NCBI RefSeq assembly: GCF_004216565.1
Contig: NZ_SGWV01000009.1
Coordinates: 434,001-498,000, forward strand
Source: Sphaerotilus mobilis
GTDB taxonomy: Bacteria; Pseudomonadota; Gammaproteobacteria; Burkholderiales; Burkholderiaceae_C
Direction: 5' to 3'
Length of the DNA stretch: 64,000 nt
Shown here: in pieces, positions 40,657-56,050 of the stretch
How the letters are laid out: every line of letters begins with the position of its first letter
Position numbering within the stretch: the stretch's first letter is position 1
Position numbers and translations under genes: made by a program
The notes under the pieces: model-generated
What the model saw: only the letters and a program-made list of their open reading frames with translations
Database searches by the model: none
Told to the model about the DNA's origin: nothing

Positions 40657-42366
40657 ATGGACACGCGCAGCTCCCGCCCTTGGCTGGACCAATACCCCGA
40701 CGGCGTCGCCGCCGATCTCGGACCGGCCGCCTTTCCCAGCCTGGTCCACCTGCTGGAAGACGCTTTCGAACGCCATGCCCAGCGCGAGCAGTTGCTGTTC
40801 ATGGGTCATGCACTGCGCTTCGCGGAGGTCGAAGCGCAGTCGCGCGCGATCGGCGCCTGGCTGCAATCGCTGGGACTGGAACCGGGCGCGCGTGTCGCGC
40901 TGATGATGCCCAACGTGCCGCAGATGGTGATCTCGCTGGCGGCGGTGCTGCGCGCCGGTTATGTGGTCGTCAACGTCAACCCGCTCTACACGCCGCGCGA
41001 GCTGTCGCACCAGCTGGTCGACTCGGGTGCCGAGGCCATCGTCATCCTGGAGAACTTCGCCGCCACGCTGGCGCCGGTGATCGCCCAGACCCGCGTGCGC
41101 CATGTCCTGGTGACGCAGCTGGGCGACGCGCTGGCGCCGCTTAAGCGGCTGCTGGTCAACACGGTGGTGCGGCATGTCAAGAAGCTGATCCCGCCCTGGA
41201 CGCTGCCCGAGCGGGCCGGCCACACGCTGCGGCGCTGGCCCGAGGCCCTGAAGGCCGGCCAGGGCATGACGCTGCGCCGCGTGGCGCCGGGACCGGACGA
41301 TCTGGCCTTCTTGCAATACACCGGCGGCACCACGGGCGTATCCAAGGGCGCGATGCTGCGGCACCGCAACGTGGTCGCCAACATCGCCCAGTGCGAGAGC
41401 TGGTTCAGCCCGATCACCCGCCAGCATGGTGAGCAGATGACCGGCGTCTGTGCCCTGCCGCTCTATCACATCTTCGCGCTGACGATCTGCTTCATGCTGG
41501 GCTCGCGGCTGGGCCAGCGCATGGTGCTGGTGCCCAATGCGCGCGACATCGCCGGCACGATCAAGACGCTGGCCAGCGTGCGCTTCCACCTCTTCCCGGC
41601 CGTCAACACGCTCTACAACGCGCTGCTCGATCACCCGGACATCAAGACGGTGGACTTCTCGGCGCTGGCCATCTCGATGGGCGGTGGCATGGCGGTGCAA
41701 CAGGCCACCGCGCAGCGCTGGCTGGCGCTGACGGGTTGTCCGATCGTCGAGGGCTACGGCCTGTCGGAGACATCGCCGGTGGCCTGCGCCAACCGGGTCG
41801 ACGTGAAGGCGTACACCGGCGCTATCGGCTATCCGATGCCGTCCACCGAGATCGCCATCCGCGACGACGACGGCCGTGACCTGCCGATCGGCGAGGCCGG
41901 CGAGATCTGCATCCGCGGACCGCAGGTGATGTCGGGCTACTGGCAACGGCCAGACGAGACCGCGCTGGTGCTGGACGCCGAGGGCTGGTTCCGCAGCGGC
42001 GACATCGGCACGATGGATGCGACCGGCCAGGTCCGCATCGTCGACCGCAAAAAGGACATGATCCTGGTCTCCGGCTTCAACGTGTACCCGACCGAGATCG
42101 AGCAGGTCGTCAGCCTGATGCCGGGCGTGGCCGAGTGCGCGGCGGTCGGCATGCCCGATGAGCGCACCGGCGAGGCGGTCCGGCTGTGCATCGTCCGGCG
42201 TGATCCGCAGCTCAGCGCCGAGGACGTCGCCGCCTGGTGCCGCCAGCAGCTGACCGCCTACAAGCGGCCGCATGTGATCGAGTTCCACACCACGCTGCCC
42301 AAGACCAACGTCGGCAAGATCCTGCGCCGCGAACTGCGCGACGCACCGCCTGCCAAGGCGGGCTGA
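40657..42366 (+). CDS. fadD: Long-chain fatty-acid--CoA ligase (FadD)
   Basis: 569-residue AMP-forming acyl-CoA synthetase. P-loop QYTGGTTGVSKGAM, then the A5-type motif GYGLSETSPV, WFRSGDIGTMD, the linker DRKKDMILVSGFNVYPTEIE (a FadD signature), and the C-terminal lysine in PKTNVGKILRREL. Length is typical (550-570). It activates fatty acids for beta-oxidation at the inner membrane. AGGAACACC precedes ATG 40657. The 469-bp stretch after it is unusual (see origin-like entry). Confidence 0.93.
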   Translation: MDTRSSRPWLDQYPDGVAADLGPAAFPSLVHLLEDAFERHAQREQLLFMGHALRFAEVEAQSRAIGAWLQSLGLEPGARVALMMPNVPQMVISLAAVLRAGYVVVNVNPLYTPRELSHQLVDSGAEAIVILENFAATLAPVIAQTRVRHVLVTQLGDALAPLKRLLVNTVVRHVKKLIPPWTLPERAGHTLRRWPEALKAGQGMTLRRVAPGPDDLAFLQYTGGTTGVSKGAMLRHRNVVANIAQCESWFSPITRQHGEQMTGVCALPLYHIFALTICFMLGSRLGQRMVLVPNARDIAGTIKTLASVRFHLFPAVNTLYNALLDHPDIKTVDFSALAISMGGGMAVQQATAQRWLALTGCPIVEGYGLSETSPVACANRVDVKAYTGAIGYPMPSTEIAIRDDDGRDLPIGEAGEICIRGPQVMSGYWQRPDETALVLDAEGWFRSGDIGTMDATGQVRIVDRKKDMILVSGFNVYPTEIEQVVSLMPGVAECAAVGMPDERTGEAVRLCIVRRDPQLSAEDVAAWCRQQLTAYKRPHVIEFHTTLPKTNVGKILRRELRDAPPAKAG

Positions 42367-42835
42367 AGGACCAGAGCTGCCTGAACTTGCCTGAACTTGC
42401 CCGAATTTGTCCACATCTTGCCCACAGCGATCCGCGTCGCGAGGACAAGCCTGTGGGCAAGTCCGGCACGGTTCGGGATGAATCCACAGGTCCGGCGCCG
42501 TCCGTCAAGTTGTTGTCACCTTGCCCCTGTGCTTCCAGGGCCCCGGCCCACAGGCTTGTGGGCCTTGCAAGTCCTTGATCGAAAAGGGCTTTTCGGGCTT
42601 GTCCACAGAAGATGGGCGCCTCTATTACGACTACTACCCTGAAAATTTTCAAAAACAGCCGATGAATACAGGGGACAACGCCGGCCCTGCGGGGCCTGCG
42701 GCGTGAGGACCTCACGGGTCGATGTTGCGGTGCAACAAGGAAGTTCCTGACGGCCCTGGCGGGACCGCCCGCCTGACACCGTGCTGACCTATCCTGAGCC
42801 ACATCTGTTCACTTCCTGCCGTCCGGACCCCGCCC
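42367..42835. other. Origin-like intergenic region: direct repeats, DnaA-box-like 9-mers and an unwinding-module arrangement
   Basis: The longest non-coding stretch in the window. Tandem 10-mers CTGAACTTGC at 42381 and 42391. DnaA-box-like 9-mers: TTGTCCACA at 42407-42415 and 42599-42607 (8/9 to TTATCCACA), TTGCCCACA at 42418-42426 and on the minus strand at 42452-42460 (7/9), GAATCCACA at 42480-42488 (7/9). Perfect inverted repeats: GGCCCACA/TGTGGGCC (42545-42564) and CGAAAAG/CTTTTCG (42580-42595). Right of the last box comes GGGCGCC (42614-42620), then triplets CTA TTA CGA CTA CTA (42622-42636), then AT-rich GAAAATTTTCAAAAAC (42641-42656). No dnaA, parAB or rep gene is nearby. Could be a replication origin, a DnaA-binding reservoir or a regulatory region. 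Confidence 0.55.
42599..42656 (+). other. Candidate basal origin-unwinding element (DnaA box, GC cluster, DnaA-trio, AT-rich)
   Basis: Order: DnaA-box-like TTGTCCACA (42599-42607), GC cluster (42614-42620), five CTA-type triplets (42622-42636, i.e. 3'-GAT-5' repeats on the other strand; four fit [G/A]A[T/A], the third, GCT, does not), then an AT-rich palindromic stretch. This order and strand sense are those described for bacterial DnaA-trio elements. Confidence 0.5.
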
Positions 42836-45520
42836 GTGGACCGTCACTTCCTGCATCCCCTGTTTCTGCCTTCCAGCCTGGTCGTCTTCACCGGCGGCGA
42901 GGATCCCGACACGCTGACGCACGGCCCCGCACGGGTCCTGTTGAAGGCCTTGAAGGCGCAGCCTTTCGAAGGCCGCGTCACCCACCTCGACACCGAGATG
43001 ACCGGCACGCTCGGTGATCTGGCGATCACGCGGGCGGACCTGGCGCTGATCGCGCTGCCCCACGAGCGCATCGCCGCCGCACTGGAGATCGCCGGGCGCA
43101 TCCGCTGCCGCGCCGCGCTGGTGCTGTCGAGCAACCTGCCGCAGTCCTCGTGTCAGGAACTGCACGAGATCGCCCGGCGTCATGACCTGCACCTGCTGGG
43201 TCCAAACAGCCTGGGCTTCCAGCGCCCGCACGAGAAGCTCAACGCCAGCCTGGCCGGCCGGCTGGCGGCGCCCGGACCGCTGGCGCTGGTGTCGCAGTCC
43301 GGCGCGCTGACCGCGTCGATGCTGGACTGGGCCGCGCGCAACGGCGTGGGCTTCTCCAACGTCATCTCGCTGGGCGCCAACACCGCCGTCGACCTGCCGC
43401 AGGTGCTGGACTTCCTGGCCCATGACGCGGCCACACAAAGCATCCTCGTCTACCTGGAAGGCATCCAGAACGCACGCCGCTTCATGAGCACGCTGCGCGC
43501 GGCCGCCTACGCCAAGCCAGTGGTCGTGATGAAGGCCGGCCGCAAGCCGGCGGGCAGCCGCGTCGCGCTGACGCACTCGGCGGCCATCGTGGGGTCGGAC
43601 GATGTCTTCGAGGCCGCCTTGCGACGCGCTGGCGTGGTGCGGGTGCGGACCTTCACGCAGATGTTCTCGGCGGCCAAGTGCCTGGCCTCACGTTACCGGC
43701 CGACCGGCCGGGGCCTGGCCATCATCACCAACGGCGGCGGCCCGGCCGTGCTGGCCGCCGACCATGCCAACGAGATGGGTCTGAACGTGGTCACGCTGGG
43801 CCAGACGCTGCGCGACGAGCTGGCGCCCAGCCTGCCCGCAGGCGCGACGCTGGACGGCGTGATCGACCTGAGCGAGGAAGCCGGCCCCGAGCACTACCGC
43901 GCCGCCTTGCTGGCCTGTGCCCGCGATCCAGCGGTCAACGGCCTGCTGGTGCTGCACGCCCCCAAGCCCGAAGGCGACCCAGACGCGATCGCGCAGGTGG
44001 TCTGCGAGACCTTGTCGCGTGTGGCCAAGCCGGTGCTGACCAGCTGGATGGGCGAGGAAAGCGTGCGCGATGCGCGCATCCTGCTCAACGACCGCTCGAT
44101 CCCGACCTTCCGCACGCCAGAGTCGGCCGTCGACGCCTTCCACAACATCGCCAGCTTCTATCAAAACCAGCAGCTGCTGCAGCAGACGCCGCCGCCGCTG
44201 TCCAGCCTGCTGGTGCCCGACGCGGAAGGCGCCCGGCTGCTGATCGAGGGTGTGCTGGCCGAGCGCCGCAAGGTCCTGACGGAGATGGAATCGAAGGCGC
44301 TGCTGGCGGCCTTCCACATCCCCGTCACCCGCACGATGCGGGCCCGCGATGCCAACGAGGCCATGCTGATCGCCAGCCAGCTGGGCTACCCAGTGGCGCT
44401 GAAGATCGACTCGCCCGACATCAGCCACAAGTCCGATGTCAACGGCGTGATCCTCAACCTGCGCAGCGCCAGCGCCGTGCGCGACGCCTGCCAGGACATG
44501 CTCTCGACGGTGGCCCGGGCGCTGCCGCAGGCGCGCATCCACGGCGTCACCGTGCAGCCCATGAGCGGCAAGCGCCATGGCCGCGAGGTCTACATCGGCA
44601 TGACCACCGACGACCCCTTCGGCCCGGTCATCACCTTCGGCGCCGGCGGCACCATGATCGAGCTGATCGCCGACCGGTCGATGGAGCTGCCGCCGCTCAA
44701 CCAGTTCCTGGCGCACCGGCTGATCGAACGTTCACGCATCGCCGAGATGCTGGGTGCCTGGCGCGGCCTGCCGGCGGTCCAGGCCGACGCGATCGAGCAG
44801 GTCCTGCTGCGGGTCTCGGAGATGGTCTGTGCGCTGCCGCAGCTGCGTGAGATGGACATCAACCCGCTGATCGTCGACGAGGACGGCGTGGTCGCGGTCG
44901 ACGCGCGCATCGTCATCGAACACACCGCCAGCGCGATGCACGGCTACGACCACCTGGCCATCCTGCCCTACCCGGCCAGCCAGGAACGCGAGTGGCCGAT
45001 GAAGGGCGGCGACCTCTACACGATCCGGCCGATCCGGCCCGACGATGCCGACATGCTGCAGGCCTTCACCCGCAACCTGTCCGAGGAAAGCCGCTACTTC
45101 CGCTTCGCCAGCGCCATGCACGAGCTGCCGGCCCGCATGCTGGCGCGCTACACGCTGATCGACTACGACCGGGAAATGGCGCTGGTCGCCGTGCATGTCG
45201 ACAAGATCCCCGACGACAGCGCGGAGGGCGGCGTGCGCGAGGTGCGCCAGATCATCGGCGTGTCGCGCTACATCACCAACCCGGACCAGACCAGCTGCGA
45301 GTTCTCGCTGGTGGTGTCGGACGCCTACAAGGGCCAGGGCCTGGGATCGCGGCTGATGCTCAGCATCATCGAGGTGGCGCGCAGCCGTGGCCTGTCGGAG
45401 ATCGACGGCCTGGTGCTGGCCAACAACCCGAACATGCTGCGCCTGATGCGTGGCCTGGGCTTTCGCGTGGCCAGCTTTGCGGAAGATCCGGAGTTCAAGC
45501 TGGTCAGCAAGCCGCTTTGA
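42836..45520 (+). CDS. Acyl-CoA synthetase (NDP-forming)-like protein fused to GNAT acetyltransferase
   Basis: 894 residues, GTG start. About residues 1-460 resemble the alpha part of ADP-forming acetyl-CoA synthetase (CoA-binding and succinyl-CoA-ligase-like domains); about 480-705 form an ATP-grasp domain (ALKIDSPDISHKSDVNGVIL, FGAGGTMIELIADRSMELPP, EMDINPLIVDEDGVVAVDAR). About 730-894 is a GNAT domain with the acetyl-CoA loop GQGLGSRL. This is the architecture of protein lysine acetyltransferases of the PatZ/Pka type, which silence acetyl-CoA synthetase. The loop that holds the phosphohistidine in true ligases reads ALTHSAAIVG and keeps a histidine (H247), so ligase activity is not excluded. 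Next to fadD and the origin-like region. Confidence 0.88.
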   Translation: MDRHFLHPLFLPSSLVVFTGGEDPDTLTHGPARVLLKALKAQPFEGRVTHLDTEMTGTLGDLAITRADLALIALPHERIAAALEIAGRIRCRAALVLSSNLPQSSCQELHEIARRHDLHLLGPNSLGFQRPHEKLNASLAGRLAAPGPLALVSQSGALTASMLDWAARNGVGFSNVISLGANTAVDLPQVLDFLAHDAATQSILVYLEGIQNARRFMSTLRAAAYAKPVVVMKAGRKPAGSRVALTHSAAIVGSDDVFEAALRRAGVVRVRTFTQMFSAAKCLASRYRPTGRGLAIITNGGGPAVLAADHANEMGLNVVTLGQTLRDELAPSLPAGATLDGVIDLSEEAGPEHYRAALLACARDPAVNGLLVLHAPKPEGDPDAIAQVVCETLSRVAKPVLTSWMGEESVRDARILLNDRSIPTFRTPESAVDAFHNIASFYQNQQLLQQTPPPLSSLLVPDAEGARLLIEGVLAERRKVLTEMESKALLAAFHIPVTRTMRARDANEAMLIASQLGYPVALKIDSPDISHKSDVNGVILNLRSASAVRDACQDMLSTVARALPQARIHGVTVQPMSGKRHGREVYIGMTTDDPFGPVITFGAGGTMIELIADRSMELPPLNQFLAHRLIERSRIAEMLGAWRGLPAVQADAIEQVLLRVSEMVCALPQLREMDINPLIVDEDGVVAVDARIVIEHTASAMHGYDHLAILPYPASQEREWPMKGGDLYTIRPIRPDDADMLQAFTRNLSEESRYFRFASAMHELPARMLARYTLIDYDREMALVAVHVDKIPDDSAEGGVREVRQIIGVSRYITNPDQTSCEFSLVVSDAYKGQGLGSRLMLSIIEVARSRGLSEIDGLVLANNPNMLRLMRGLGFRVASFAEDPEFKLVSKPL

Positions 45521-51802: not shown

Positions 51803-52266
51803 CGATGAATCGTGTTTCACGCGCTTGGCTGGTGCTACCCGGCCTGCTGCTGGCGATTTCGGCGCTCGCCCAGGATGCGGCCTCGACTGCATCAACCGCC
51901 TCAACCGGTTCAAGCGCCCTGCCACCGATCCCGTATGCGACGGTTGCCGAGGCCCTGAGCGCACTAGAGGCCCGCGACGGCAACGGCACCGTTGTCACGC
52001 ATGCCGACGGCTGGACCACGGTCAATGAACCGATGGCATCGGCGCAGTGGTCCTTCACGCCGGCCGGCCACCCGGCCCACCCGGCGCTGGTGCGTCGCAT
52101 CGTCGAGCGCCCGCGCGGCGGCGAGCTGCGTGTCGACGTGTCGACCTTGTGCGAGTCGAGCAACGCCGCCGCCTGCAGCCAGCTGCGCAGCGACTTCGAG
52201 GCCATGAGCGAGCGCATCCGCCAGGCCCTGAAGGCGCGCGGACGTGCGCCACAACAAGGGCGTTGA
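51799..52266 (+). CDS. Hypothetical secreted protein
   Basis: 155 residues. Sec signal peptide (MTMNRVSRAWLVLPGLLLAI to about ...ALAQ), a short Ser/Thr/Ala linker, then a conserved-looking domain (IPYATVAEALSALEARDGNG, TVVTHADGWTTVNEPMASAQ, WSFTPAGHPAHPALVRRIVE, STLCESSNAAACSQLRSDFE) with two cysteines that may pair. Family not named. The ATGA overlap with the GST gene implies co-translation; ATG 51805 is an alternative start. Predicted periplasmic. Confidence 0.65.
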   Translation: MTMNRVSRAWLVLPGLLLAISALAQDAASTASTASTGSSALPPIPYATVAEALSALEARDGNGTVVTHADGWTTVNEPMASAQWSFTPAGHPAHPALVRRIVERPRGGELRVDVSTLCESSNAAACSQLRSDFEAMSERIRQALKARGRAPQQGR

Positions 52267-52341
52267 AGCGACGGCGGTCCGGCCTTCGGCCCGCTTGCGA
52301 ACCGTCAAGGCCTGATCCGGCGTCGCTGTCAAGCTGGCGCC

Positions 52342-53292
52342 ATGACCGACCTTCTCCTTTCCGCCGGGGCGCGCCGACCCGGCTGGCGCACCTGGGTCCG
52401 CGCCACGCGGCCGGGCTTTCTGCTCGTCACCGCCGTGGCGGCCTTGCTGGGGACCTTGTCCGGACTGGCCTGTGGTGCGCCGCCGGACTGGCCGGCGGGC
52501 GCTGCCGCCATCGTGCTGGCCGTCCTGGCACATGCGGCGATGAACCTGCACAACGACTGGGGCGACGCCCAGATCGGCTCGGACGCCATCAACACCGGCC
52601 GCATTGCGCCCTTCAGTGGCGGCTCGCGCATGGTCCAGGACGGCGTGCTGACGCCCGATCAGCTGCGCGACGCCGTGCACGTGCTCGCCATGGTCGTCGT
52701 CGGCGGCGGCATCGTGCTGGCCGCCCGCGCCGGGCCGGCGCTGATCGCCATCGGCCTGGTCGGCCTGACCCTGGGCTGGGCCTACTCGCAGCCACGCGTC
52801 GCGCTGATGTCGCGCGGGCTCGGCGAACTCGGCGTCGTGCTGGCCTGGTGGCTGGTCGTGCTGGGGGCCGACGTGGTCCAGCAGCACCGCCTCAACACGC
52901 TGGCGCTGCTGCCCGGCGTCAGCCTGGCGCTGCTGGTCGGCGCGATCCTGTGGGTCGCCGAATTCCCCGACGCGCAGGCCGACGCCCAGGTCGGCAAGCG
53001 CACGCTGGTGGTCCGGCTCGGCCCGGTCCCCGCCGCGTGGCTGCACCTGCTGATCGTGCTGGCCGCCCACACCTGGGTCGCCGCCTGGTGGTGGGCCGAC
53101 TGGCTGCCGTCCAAGGCCGGCTGGGCCCTGCTGACCGCCCTGCCCAGCGGCTGGGCCGCCATCTGGCTGCTGATCGACGCCCGCCACCCCCAGCGCCTGC
53201 GCGCCGTGATGGTCGTGACCGTGGCGGTGGCCGTGTTGCACGGGCTGCTGCTGAGTGCGGCTTATGGGCGGGTGGTGTGGTTGCGGGGGTGA
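52342..53292 (+). CDS. UbiA-family prenyltransferase (MenA-like)
   Basis: 316 residues, about nine membrane helices. The two metal-diphosphate motifs are present: NLHNDWGDAQIGSD (N-DxxxD type, about residues 72-85) and EFPDAQADAQVGKRTLVVRL (DxxxD, about 208-227). The second motif with KRTL is typical of the MenA/1,4-dihydroxy-2-naphthoate prenyltransferase branch. No menaquinone genes are in the window, so another aromatic acceptor is possible. Membrane enzyme; stands alone between a secreted protein and nudB. Confidence 0.82.
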   Translation: MTDLLLSAGARRPGWRTWVRATRPGFLLVTAVAALLGTLSGLACGAPPDWPAGAAAIVLAVLAHAAMNLHNDWGDAQIGSDAINTGRIAPFSGGSRMVQDGVLTPDQLRDAVHVLAMVVVGGGIVLAARAGPALIAIGLVGLTLGWAYSQPRVALMSRGLGELGVVLAWWLVVLGADVVQQHRLNTLALLPGVSLALLVGAILWVAEFPDAQADAQVGKRTLVVRLGPVPAAWLHLLIVLAAHTWVAAWWWADWLPSKAGWALLTALPSGWAAIWLLIDARHPQRLRAVMVVTVAVAVLHGLLLSAAYGRVVWLRG

Positions 53293-53367
53293 AGGCCGGG
53301 CGTTCGCGGACAGGGTCGGCCGGTATCCTCGTCAGACCGCTCATCGCCCACCTGTTGTCCGCCGCCC

Positions 53368-53868
53368 ATGTCGATTTCTGACCCTGATCTCCCACCGTCG
53401 ACCCGCCCACCCAAGATCCCCGAATCGGTGCTGGTCGTCATCCACACCGCCGCGCTGGAGGTGCTGTTGATCGAGCGGGCCGACAAGCCCGGCTTCTGGC
53501 AGAGCGTGACCGGCTCGAAGGACCATCCGGACGAGGACCTGCGGCTGACCGCCGTGCGCGAGGTCGCCGAGGAGACCGGCATCGTGGTCGGCTCGGCGGC
53601 GGTGCCCGATGCCGCCTTGCGGGACTGGGGCCTGCGCAACGTCTACGAGATCTACCCGGTCTGGCGGCACCGCTATGCGCCGGGCGTGACGCACAACACC
53701 GAGCATGTCTTCGGCCTGACCGTGCCGCGCGACATCGCGGTGACGCTGGCGCCGCGCGAGCATCTGCAGCACGCCTGGCTGCCGTGGCGCGAGGCGGCCG
53801 ATCGCTGCTTCTCGCCGAGCAATGCCGAGGCCATCCTGCAACTGCCTCACCAACGGGGTGAGGCATGA
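53368..53868 (+). CDS. nudB: Dihydroneopterin triphosphate diphosphatase (NudB)
   Basis: 166 residues. Nudix box GSKDHPDEDLRLTAVREVAE then ETGIVV (G-x5-E-x7-REVxEETGI, about residues 50-75). The flanking PESVLVVIHTAALEVLLIER and GFWQSVTGSKDHPDE fit NudB, which removes pyrophosphate from dihydroneopterin triphosphate in folate synthesis. The end overlaps the next nuclease gene by 4 bp, so nudB-nuclease-clsB form an operon. Confidence 0.9.
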   Translation: MSISDPDLPPSTRPPKIPESVLVVIHTAALEVLLIERADKPGFWQSVTGSKDHPDEDLRLTAVREVAEETGIVVGSAAVPDAALRDWGLRNVYEIYPVWRHRYAPGVTHNTEHVFGLTVPRDIAVTLAPREHLQHAWLPWREAADRCFSPSNAEAILQLPHQRGEA

Positions 53869-54674
53869 CCCGCAGCCTGCGGACGCCGCACCGCGCCGAA
53901 CACCCGGCCGGTGCCGAGCGCCGCTTGCGGGTGGCGACCTACAACATCCACAAGGGCGTGCGCGGCGTGGGTCCGCGCAAGCGGCTGGAGATCCACAACC
54001 TGGGCGACGGCGTGGCGCAGCTGGGCGCCGATCTGGTCTTTCTGCAGGAGGTCCGCTTGTTCCACCACGGTGACGCGCGGCGCTTTGACCACACCTCCTT
54101 CGGCTGGCCGGCGCAGGGTCAGGCCGAGTTCCTGGCGCCCGACGGCTACGAGACGGCCTACCGCACCAACGCGGTCACCCACGGTGGAGAGCATGGCAAC
54201 GCCTTGCTGTCGCGCTGGCCGCTGGGCGACATCGGCCATCACGATGTGTCGGACCACCGCTTCGAGCAGCGCGGCCTGCTGCATGCGATCGTGAACTGGC
54301 AGGGCGTGGCGGTGCACGGCATCGTGGCGCACTTCGGCCTGTTCCACGCCAGCCGGGCGCGCCAGGCGCAGCGCCTGGGCGAATACGTCGCCAGCCGGGT
54401 GCCGGCGGGGGCGCCGGTGATCGTCGCGGGCGACTTCAACGACTGGGGCGAGCGGCTCGATCCGTGGTTCGTGCAGGCCGGGCTGGCGCGGGCGACGGTG
54501 CCGGGCGCGCTGCGCCACCCGCTGACGTTTCCGTCGCGGCTGCCGCTGTTCTCGCTCGACCGGGTCTACACGCGCGGGCTGCGCTGCCTGCGCACCGAGG
54601 TGCCACGCGGCGCGTCCTGGGCCCGCATGTCCGACCACCTGCCACTGGTGGTGGAACTGGAGCTGACCGGGTGA
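53865..54674 (+). CDS. Endonuclease/exonuclease/phosphatase-family protein
   Basis: 269 residues. EEP fold: LRVATYNIHKGVRGVG, the catalytic glutamate in VFLQEVRLFHHGD, VHGIVAHFGLFHASRARQAQ (histidine), VIVAGDFNDWGERLD and the final WARMSDHLPLVVELEL (SDH). Probably a metal-dependent phosphoesterase acting on nucleic acid or phospholipid. Linked by overlaps to nudB and clsB, as in many betaproteobacteria, where its role next to cardiolipin synthase is unknown. Confidence 0.88.
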   Translation: MTRSLRTPHRAEHPAGAERRLRVATYNIHKGVRGVGPRKRLEIHNLGDGVAQLGADLVFLQEVRLFHHGDARRFDHTSFGWPAQGQAEFLAPDGYETAYRTNAVTHGGEHGNALLSRWPLGDIGHHDVSDHRFEQRGLLHAIVNWQGVAVHGIVAHFGLFHASRARQAQRLGEYVASRVPAGAPVIVAGDFNDWGERLDPWFVQAGLARATVPGALRHPLTFPSRLPLFSLDRVYTRGLRCLRTEVPRGASWARMSDHLPLVVELELTG

Positions 54675-56050
54675 ACGCGCCGACGCCGTCGCCCCCGGCC
54701 GGCCGCCTGCGTCCCAGCTTGCGACGGGGCCGCTACGGCTGGTACCTGCTGCAGCGGCCGGTGTTGCGCGACGGTCATGCGGTGACGCTGCTGCGTGGCG
54801 GCGCGCAGCTGTTCCCGGCGATGTGCGCGGCGATCGCGGCGGCGCAGCGCGAGGTCTGGCTGGCGACCTACATCTTCAACGACGACGAGCAGGCGCTGGT
54901 CGTGGCCGATGCCTTGGTGGCCGCAGCAGCGCGCGGCGTGCGGGTCAGGGTCGTCATCGACGGCTTCGGCACCAAGCACAGCCGCAGCCGGATCGAGCAG
55001 CGGCTGGCCGCGTCGCCGGGCATCGCCGTCGAGACCGGCCGGCCGTCGCGGCGACTGCAGCTGGCGGTGTTCCGGCCGATCGAGCGCTGGACCCACTGGC
55101 TGCAACCCGGCCAGCTGCGCCGCCTGCACATGAAGCTGTGCACGGTCGACGACACGGTCGGCTACATCGGTGGCATCAACCTGATCGACGACCACGTCGA
55201 CCTCAACCACGGCCGCACCGAGGCGCCGCGGCTGGACTACGCGCTGGCGGTGTCCGGGCCGGTGGTGGAGACGATGCGGCAGGTGGTCCGGGCGATGTGG
55301 TCACGCGCCTGGCACGGCAGCGACTGGCGCGACGCGCTGCGCCGGCTGGTCGTCGCACCGCAGCCGATGCAGCGTCTGCGCGGCCTGCTGCGCGAGCTGC
55401 GCATGCCGCTGCGCCCAGGTGCCGAAGGGGTCGCCGATGGCCAGCCGCCGGGCGGGTCGAGCCCCGCAGCGACGATGCGCGCCGCGCTGGTGGTGCGCGA
55501 CAACGTGCGCCAGCGCCGCACCATCGAACGCGCCTGCGTCGAGGCGATGCGCGGGGCGCAGCGGCGCATCTGGCTGGTCACGCCCTACTTCTACCCGGGC
55601 ACCGGTTTCCGGCTGGCCCTGGCCGATGCGGCGCGGCGTGGCGTCGAGGTCCGGCTGCTGCTGCAAGGCAAGGCCGACTACCGGCTGGCGGCCTGGGCGG
55701 CCCGTGCGCTCTACCGCGAGCTGCACCAGCACGGCGTGCACATCCACGAGTACCTGCCGGCCTTCCTGCATGCCAAGGTCATGCTGATCGACGACGACTG
55801 GTGCACGGTGGGCAGCAGCAACATCGACCCGCTGTCGCTGCTGCTCAACCTCGAGGCCAACCTGATCGTGTCGGACGCAGGCTTCTGCGCCACGTTGGCC
55901 ACCGAGCTGGAAGGCGCCATGGCCGACAGCCGCGAGGTCCTGCCCGACAGCCTGCGCGAAGCCGGCTGGGTACGGCTGGCCAGGCGGGCGGTGGTGGCGT
56001 GGGTGGCCTACGTCTACCTGCGTGTCGCGGGGGTCACCGGCAGGTATTGA
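54671..56050 (+). CDS. clsB: Cardiolipin synthase B-type phospholipase D (ClsB)
   Basis: 459 residues, GTG start that overlaps the nuclease stop (GTGA). Two HKD motifs: HMKLCTVDDTVGYIGGINL (about residues 155-173) and HAKVMLIDDDWCTVGSSNID (about 366-385), both with intact H, K and D. A basic N-terminus and a C-terminal hydrophobic segment (AVVAWVAYVYLRVAGVTG) suit a membrane-bound enzyme. It joins phosphatidylglycerol with another phospholipid to make cardiolipin. Confidence 0.92.
   Translation: MNAPTPSPPAGRLRPSLRRGRYGWYLLQRPVLRDGHAVTLLRGGAQLFPAMCAAIAAAQREVWLATYIFNDDEQALVVADALVAAAARGVRVRVVIDGFGTKHSRSRIEQRLAASPGIAVETGRPSRRLQLAVFRPIERWTHWLQPGQLRRLHMKLCTVDDTVGYIGGINLIDDHVDLNHGRTEAPRLDYALAVSGPVVETMRQVVRAMWSRAWHGSDWRDALRRLVVAPQPMQRLRGLLRELRMPLRPGAEGVADGQPPGGSSPAATMRAALVVRDNVRQRRTIERACVEAMRGAQRRIWLVTPYFYPGTGFRLALADAARRGVEVRLLLQGKADYRLAAWAARALYRELHQHGVHIHEYLPAFLHAKVMLIDDDWCTVGSSNIDPLSLLLNLEANLIVSDAGFCATLATELEGAMADSREVLPDSLREAGWVRLARRAVVAWVAYVYLRVAGVTGRY

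Follow-up and report, generated by a model that had tools for sequence, protein, structure and literature searches.

A putative chromosome origin with a basal-unwinding architecture, uncoupled from dnaA, in a Leptothrix-type bacterium and its relatives

The intergenic region 42367..42835 of the 64-kb stretch of DNA analysed here (the window) very probably serves a Leptothrix-type bacterium as its oriC, or contributes at least the unwinding half, and this putative origin is uncoupled from dnaA, the gene beside which origins are commonly sought. The reading has a computational basis, consisting of the architecture of the region, its conservation, its location with respect to dnaA and parS, and the switches of composition seen in related genomes. 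A preliminary description had left it undecided whether this was a second DnaA-binding locus or an origin that is uncoupled from dnaA; the latter is now favoured, because the conservation is strong, the dnaA flank of the same genome lacks the module, and the switches in several relatives are situated nearer to the module or fit dnaA worse. Confidence is held at this level because the GC skew of one relative from the same genus (G009) lies on the dnaA side and because the triplets of the module include no run of three.

The 469-bp region containing the proposed oriC has a GC content of 0.61 vs about 0.70 for the surrounding window. It is bounded on the left by an AMP-binding (FadD-like) gene (40657..42366, + strand) and lies directly upstream of a Pat-like gene whose domains are Succ_CoA_lig, ATP-grasp and GNAT (42836..45520, + strand). 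The region is non-coding, as the FadD-like frame stops at 42366 and the Pat-like frame begins at 42836. The Pat-like protein shows 95% identity with its counterpart from Leptothrix discophora CCM 2812. These domains agree with the neighbours named earlier, fadD and an acyl-CoA synthetase-GNAT gene, and dnaA was found on another contig of the genome (C4, the module being on C3), so that the module is adjacent to neither dnaA nor dnaN. A search of 42300-42900 against Rfam gave a single match, to a microRNA family, with 20 bits vs a gathering score of 74, and this match was taken as chance.

On the left side of the region stand two tandem CTGAACTTGC 10-mers (42381..42400, + strand, starts at 42381 and 42391), for which no conservation was seen among the relatives compared. 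The DnaA-box-like 9-mers, whose mismatches were counted against TTATCCACA, include TTGTCCACA with one mismatch (42407..42415, + strand), TTGCCCACA with two mismatches both at 42418..42426 (+ strand) and, inside the conserved block ACAAGnCTGTGGnCAAG, at 42452..42460 (− strand), and GAATCCACA with two mismatches (42480..42488, + strand), the aligned place of which is occupied in relatives by TTGTCCACA or TTATCCACA. Two perfect inverted repeats are present, 42417-42427/42451-42461 and 42445-42458/42546-42559. Alignment of relatives revealed conserved AAGTTGTTGT (42507..42516), CCCACAGGCTTG (42547..42558) and CAAGTCCTTGAT (42568..42579), all on the + strand, and the conserved core that was the source of the sequence profile extends over 42524..42654 (+ strand). 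The fifth box, again TTGTCCACA with one mismatch (42599..42607, + strand), adjoins the predicted unwinding site and is followed on the same strand by a 14-nt spacer (42608..42621) with the GC cluster GGGCGCC at 42614-42620, by the DnaA-trio-like triplets CTA TTA CGA CTA CTA (42622..42636) and by the AT-rich tract GAAAATTTTCAAAAAC (42641..42656), the presumed opening site. The 10-mers, five boxes, inverted repeats, GC cluster, triplets and AT tract given in the preliminary description were all found exactly in place. Four of the five triplets fit the DnaA-trio, which has its middle A on the bound strand, but no three of them are consecutive, the third triplet being CGA; in relatives, CGA occupies the third triplet in 9 and the fourth in 14 of 41 sequences. 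The AT count of the 25-mer 42637-42661 is reached in 157 of 63975 windows, and the 15 nt after the triplets have a mean AT content of 0.75 (minimum 0.47) in the 41 sequences.

A DNA search of 60 genomes gave matches in eight, the own genome included, and twelve modules from these eight genomes can be aligned in a common layout comprising ACAAGnCTGTGGnCAAG, a box, AAGTTGTTGT, CCCACAGGCTTG, CAAGTnCTTGAT and TTRTCCACAGA, after which a GC-rich spacer, CTA triplets and the AT tract follow. The exact pattern box-N{5,16}-CTAYTAC was found 63 times, in 46 of 200 genomes of the family, and the reversed pattern five times, in four genomes. A sequence profile of 131 positions was built from 41 modules, the window's own among them; because this profile contains the window, a leave-genus-out profile was also built from 34 of the 41 rows, with no sequence from this genus. 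The alignment rows were chosen by a pattern demanding the box and the first triplets, and therefore the invariance at these places is partly by construction. The 41-module profile has matches in 187 of the 200 family genomes (173 of 179 among those of good quality) and in all 13 genomes of the genus, and conservation extends beyond the box to the spacer, the triplets and the AT tract. Thus, the comparison of related genomes, suggested earlier as a check, demonstrated strong conservation, and a single profile leads to an origin candidate in most of a family where linkage with dnaA is often lost. An order-wide search with the profile gave matches at E <= 0.001 in 24 of 120 genomes; the own family accounts for three of these, and the others have E values of 1.2e-9 or weaker. 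Two genera of another family (f8) of the same order have two or three matches each, namely weaker same-strand matches within 1.5 kb at C1:5138120 and 5138510 in G042 and at C1:1853740, 1854534 and 1855157 in G264. In two genomes of one genus, G034 (L107) and G185 (L108), the spacer of the module is shortened to 9 nt and boxes are far more numerous around it, 4-5 near and 9-16 elsewhere in 3 kb.

The distance between the module and the DnaA domain was tabulated for genomes with both on one contig, among the matches listed. It is within 1.2 kb in 18 of these 60 genomes, about 5 kb in two and 14-460 kb in 40, with a median of 69 kb; one module each was entered for G009, which has three, and G012, which has two. 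The dnaA flank of the own genome (L001) contains two perfect boxes without the module, and the leave-genus-out profile found nothing significant there (best E 1.4). Of 13 dnaA-flank loci searched with the same profile, G029 alone has a significant match (E 6.6e-12), on the downstream side of its DnaA domain; in G009, G016 and G027 the contig start truncates the upstream flank of dnaA. An origin at dnaA in the own genome was considered as a candidate and rejected, on the dnaA flank lacking a significant profile match and on those relatives whose skew or KOPS disfavours dnaA.

Sites similar to parS were detected in all 20 genomes searched, which were mostly chosen for having a module or a complete chromosome. 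In the own genome, the module and parS share a contig and are 60.6 kb apart. The distance from module to parS is 13.7-63 kb in 19 of the 20 genomes and 165 kb in G008 (median 34 kb), and that from dnaA to parS is 26.5-625 kb (median 133 kb); in most genomes the module is nearer to parS than dnaA is. Of 18 genomes with all three on one contig, 16 have the module in the interval between parS and dnaA, the exceptions being G027 and G194. The positions in G008, a genome of the Leptothrix genus, are spread over 625 kb of C1 (dnaA 1326104, module 1785688, parS 1950755), which suggests a rearrangement.

Switches of composition were fitted as change-points of GC skew and of the KOPS motif GGGNAGGG, also used in PMC4948915, the fit of each locus being expressed in log units worse than the best change-point. 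The raw GC skew of G030 has its change-point at 2500-2525 kb (best 2515), with values of 3.2 and 2.6 for the modules (2496 and 2507 kb) and 10.8 for dnaA; that of G016 is best at 40 kb, with 0.0, 0.5 and 4.5 for the modules and 3.5 for dnaA. In both genomes a module stands right at the change-point of the raw skew. For G107 (best 370 kb) the modules gave 1.2 and 2.5 and dnaA 8.7, and for G012 (best 435 kb) the modules at 351-360 kb gave 2.0 and 0.9 and dnaA 3.3; in these two genomes the modules are near the switch. The raw skew of G009 leans weakly to dnaA (module 2.4, dnaA 0.9; 2.6 and 0.7 with more sequence), and that of the own contig, with a total signal of 2.0, is uninformative. After gene correction, the third-position skew gave 3.1 and 1.0 for the modules and 13.1 for dnaA in G030, and 3.0 and 2.8 vs 11.9 in G012. 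The gene-corrected skew of G107 (best 56 kb) places the modules at 2.4-2.9 and dnaA at 2.9; it is weak in G009, G016 and G008, as well as in the own contig (best 487 kb, 1.8).

The KOPS switch of G009 is best at 4789 kb, 35 kb from the tandem modules vs 121 kb from dnaA, the fit being 3.1 for the tandem modules, 7.2 for dnaA and 10.7 for the third copy, and none of 1000 permutations was as strong. The same holds for permutations in G030, where the modules gave 1.5 and dnaA 6.6. KOPS values in G016 were 0.2, 2.5 and 0.8 for the modules and 6.0 for dnaA (5/1000 permutations as strong), and in G107, best at 363 kb, 4.5 and 4.3 for the modules (395-399 kb) and 6.7 for dnaA (3/1000). The own contig is suggestive, with the best KOPS switch at 487 kb, the module at 2.6 and parS at 3.9 (22/1000 permutations as strong); G012 is uninformative (190/1000), and G008 has 16 KOPS sites only. 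As these genomes are related, the p-values overstate the case. In the window, the cumulative GC skew turns at about 52-54 kb, and the KOPS switch at 487-490 kb of the contig corresponds to 53-56 kb. A second module was not found near this switch (window 52000-56000, about 10 kb to the right of the module).

In genomes with a strong signal the module is at the switch or within tens of kb of it, and dnaA fits worst or nearly so. Skew and KOPS switches thus favour the module over dnaA in these relatives, and in the own genome their support is weak. The skew check proposed in the preliminary description gave a mixed outcome: dnaA is disfavoured by the raw skew of G030, G016, G107 and G012, by the gene-corrected skew of G030 and G012, and by KOPS in G030, G016, G009 and G107, but the raw skew of G009 leans weakly to dnaA and the own contig is uninformative by GC skew.

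Two or more profile matches occur in 63 of the 200 family genomes, nine of which have three. Among the matches listed, all modules are on one strand in 37 of 38 contigs with at least two, and 15 of 40 spacings are below 1 kb, 24 are 1-25 kb and one is larger. The sole inverted pair among these 38 listed contigs is that of G194 (C1:2591195, − strand, and 2591565, + strand), with the DnaA domain about 1 kb away. Spacings of 0.3-20 kb prevail in most multi-module genomes. In G009, a tandem pair (4753756/4754100) is 155 kb from dnaA on one side, and a diverged third copy with a TTATCGACA box (C1:158833-158947, L276) is 158 kb away on the other, 314 kb off across dnaA. Among the matches listed, two or more modules were found in 27 of 40 dnaA-distant vs 1 of 18 dnaA-adjacent genomes (Fisher 9e-6, uncorrected for kinship). 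Multiple modules occur in several relatives, so that the presence of one does not by itself prove an active origin. In a large part of the family, the chromosome would carry two or three complete, mostly co-oriented modules; that at least two of these function, forming a dispersed multi-module origin or alternative origins that arose as the linkage with dnaA was lost, is a tentative and rather doubtful proposal. A 2015 opinion article (PMC4403523) states that evidence for a bacterial chromosome with two functional origins was then lacking. The frequent same-strand duplications make the use of more than one unwinding module by a natural chromosome a testable question.

If the module acts as an origin in the manner of the published basal unwinding system (PMC8287927), DnaA-ATP would bind the boxes, including the last one at 42599, and a DnaA filament would then cross the GC-rich spacer and continue along the complementary strand of the CTA-type triplets. 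The duplex may then open over 42622-42656, including the AT tract, where the helicase would be loaded and initiation would presumably fire. In this lineage the origin would no longer stand beside dnaA-dnaN, yet would stay near parS. Against this stand the imperfect boxes and the frequent offsets of the switches, 35 kb in G009 and about 10 kb in the own contig, with further ones in the KOPS of G107 and the skew of G012.

Boxes with one or two mismatches and a CGA triplet could be regarded as a chance assembly of box-like words, a practically negligible possibility. The window has six boxes with <=1 mismatch vs 1.63 expected, a number that 0/100 shuffles reach, though only two of the six are inside the intergenic stretch. 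Five boxes with <=2 mismatches per 276 bp are met in 7 of 6373 overlapping windows, and the five positions listed (42341-42381) all belong to this locus; the combination of a box with <=1 mismatch and, 3-16 nt beyond it, at least three [CT][TG]A triplets is unique to this locus within the 64 kb. The leave-genus-out profile matches 42533-42649 with E 1.4e-24, the sole significant match in the window (next E 0.95), vs E 0.58 for the best match in 20 dinucleotide shuffles of the window. Chance was rejected, being contradicted by this E value and by conservation. A regulatory region of fadD or of the Pat-like gene, binding DnaA or another factor, would explain the place directly upstream of the latter and the presence of fadD among the flanking genes of 9 of the 13 genomes of the genus. 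The module, however, is found at only one of eight named Pat loci having an upstream side, that of L. discophora (the ninth, L062, has no such side), and a distance of more than 1.5 Mb separates Pat from the modules in G016 and G019; on these grounds the regulatory element, a highly improbable explanation, was rejected too.

Loci of the datA/DARS kind consist of a box cluster without an unwinding module and have IHF or Fis sites. A DnaA reservoir or regulatory locus of this kind, or a titration cluster, with the true origin elsewhere within some tens of kb, would account for the several boxes and for the distance of 10-35 kb between switch and module in the own contig and in G009, and a conserved dense DnaA-motif region near the origin is described in E. 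coli (PMC12371093). Here, however, an unwinding module is present and conserved: the spacer, triplets and AT tract, unneeded for titration, are kept with the box. The same module also occupies a usual origin site, at a distance of about 1 kb to the DnaA domain, in 18 of 60 genomes among the matches listed, and the change-point of the raw skew falls on it in G030 and G016, so the reservoir appears unlikely. It is quite improbable that the module is a relic, i.e., a former oriC with initiation now at a place missed by the profile. The diverged third module of G009 with its TTATCGACA box and the GC skew of that genome, not centred on the intact modules, agree with such a relic, but in the own genome (G000) the sole module found is intact, and the core is kept in 13/13 genus genomes.

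Origins distant from dnaA have precedents: E. coli oriC is not beside dnaA. Cupriavidus metallidurans is a member of the same broad family, and Burkholderia cenocepacia is related to this lineage. The basal unwinding system (BUS) of bacterial oriC is composed of a DnaA box and at least three DnaA-trios, with a spacer of most commonly 13 and at most 16 nt (PMC8287927). The module resembles it in the order of box, GC-rich spacer, triplets and AT tract: a box beside the unwinding site, a 14-nt spacer within the published range, an AT-rich tract after the trios and conservation among relatives were all found. Unlike the BUS, it is situated away from dnaA-dnaN, is often duplicated in relatives and has one CGA triplet. 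On chromosome 1 of C. metallidurans CH34, DnaA boxes accompany a transition of the GC skew that is situated about 90 kb from dnaA (PMC2864759); the likeness is limited to a dnaA-distant switch with boxes, and the account cited describes no unwinding module. For chromosome 1 of B. cenocepacia, DnaA boxes, repeats and an AT-rich block in a GC-rich genome are reported in a source that leaves the exact origin uncertain (PMC4948915), and these boxes, repeats and AT-rich block were compared with ours by description. Chromosome 1 of Ralstonia pickettii 12D has two predicted origins, one beside dnaA and another about 290 kb off beside hemE, based on boxes, adjacent genes and Z-curves (PMC4403523); the likeness consists in two predicted origins on one chromosome, which are not known to share this module. 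Synechococcus lividus PCC 6715 also has its chromosome origin away from dnaA (PMC6323995). This origin and that of E. coli stand off dnaA as the present one does, and they differ in box sequence or layout, one origin locus being described in each. Among the papers listed from the openly licensed PMC literature, no report was found of the module, its duplications or dnaA-unlinked origins across the family, and DoriC may record it. In our opinion, judging from sequence, the proposed origin would belong to a known kind, BUS-type and dnaA-unlinked, of which this module with its duplications is apparently a new variant.
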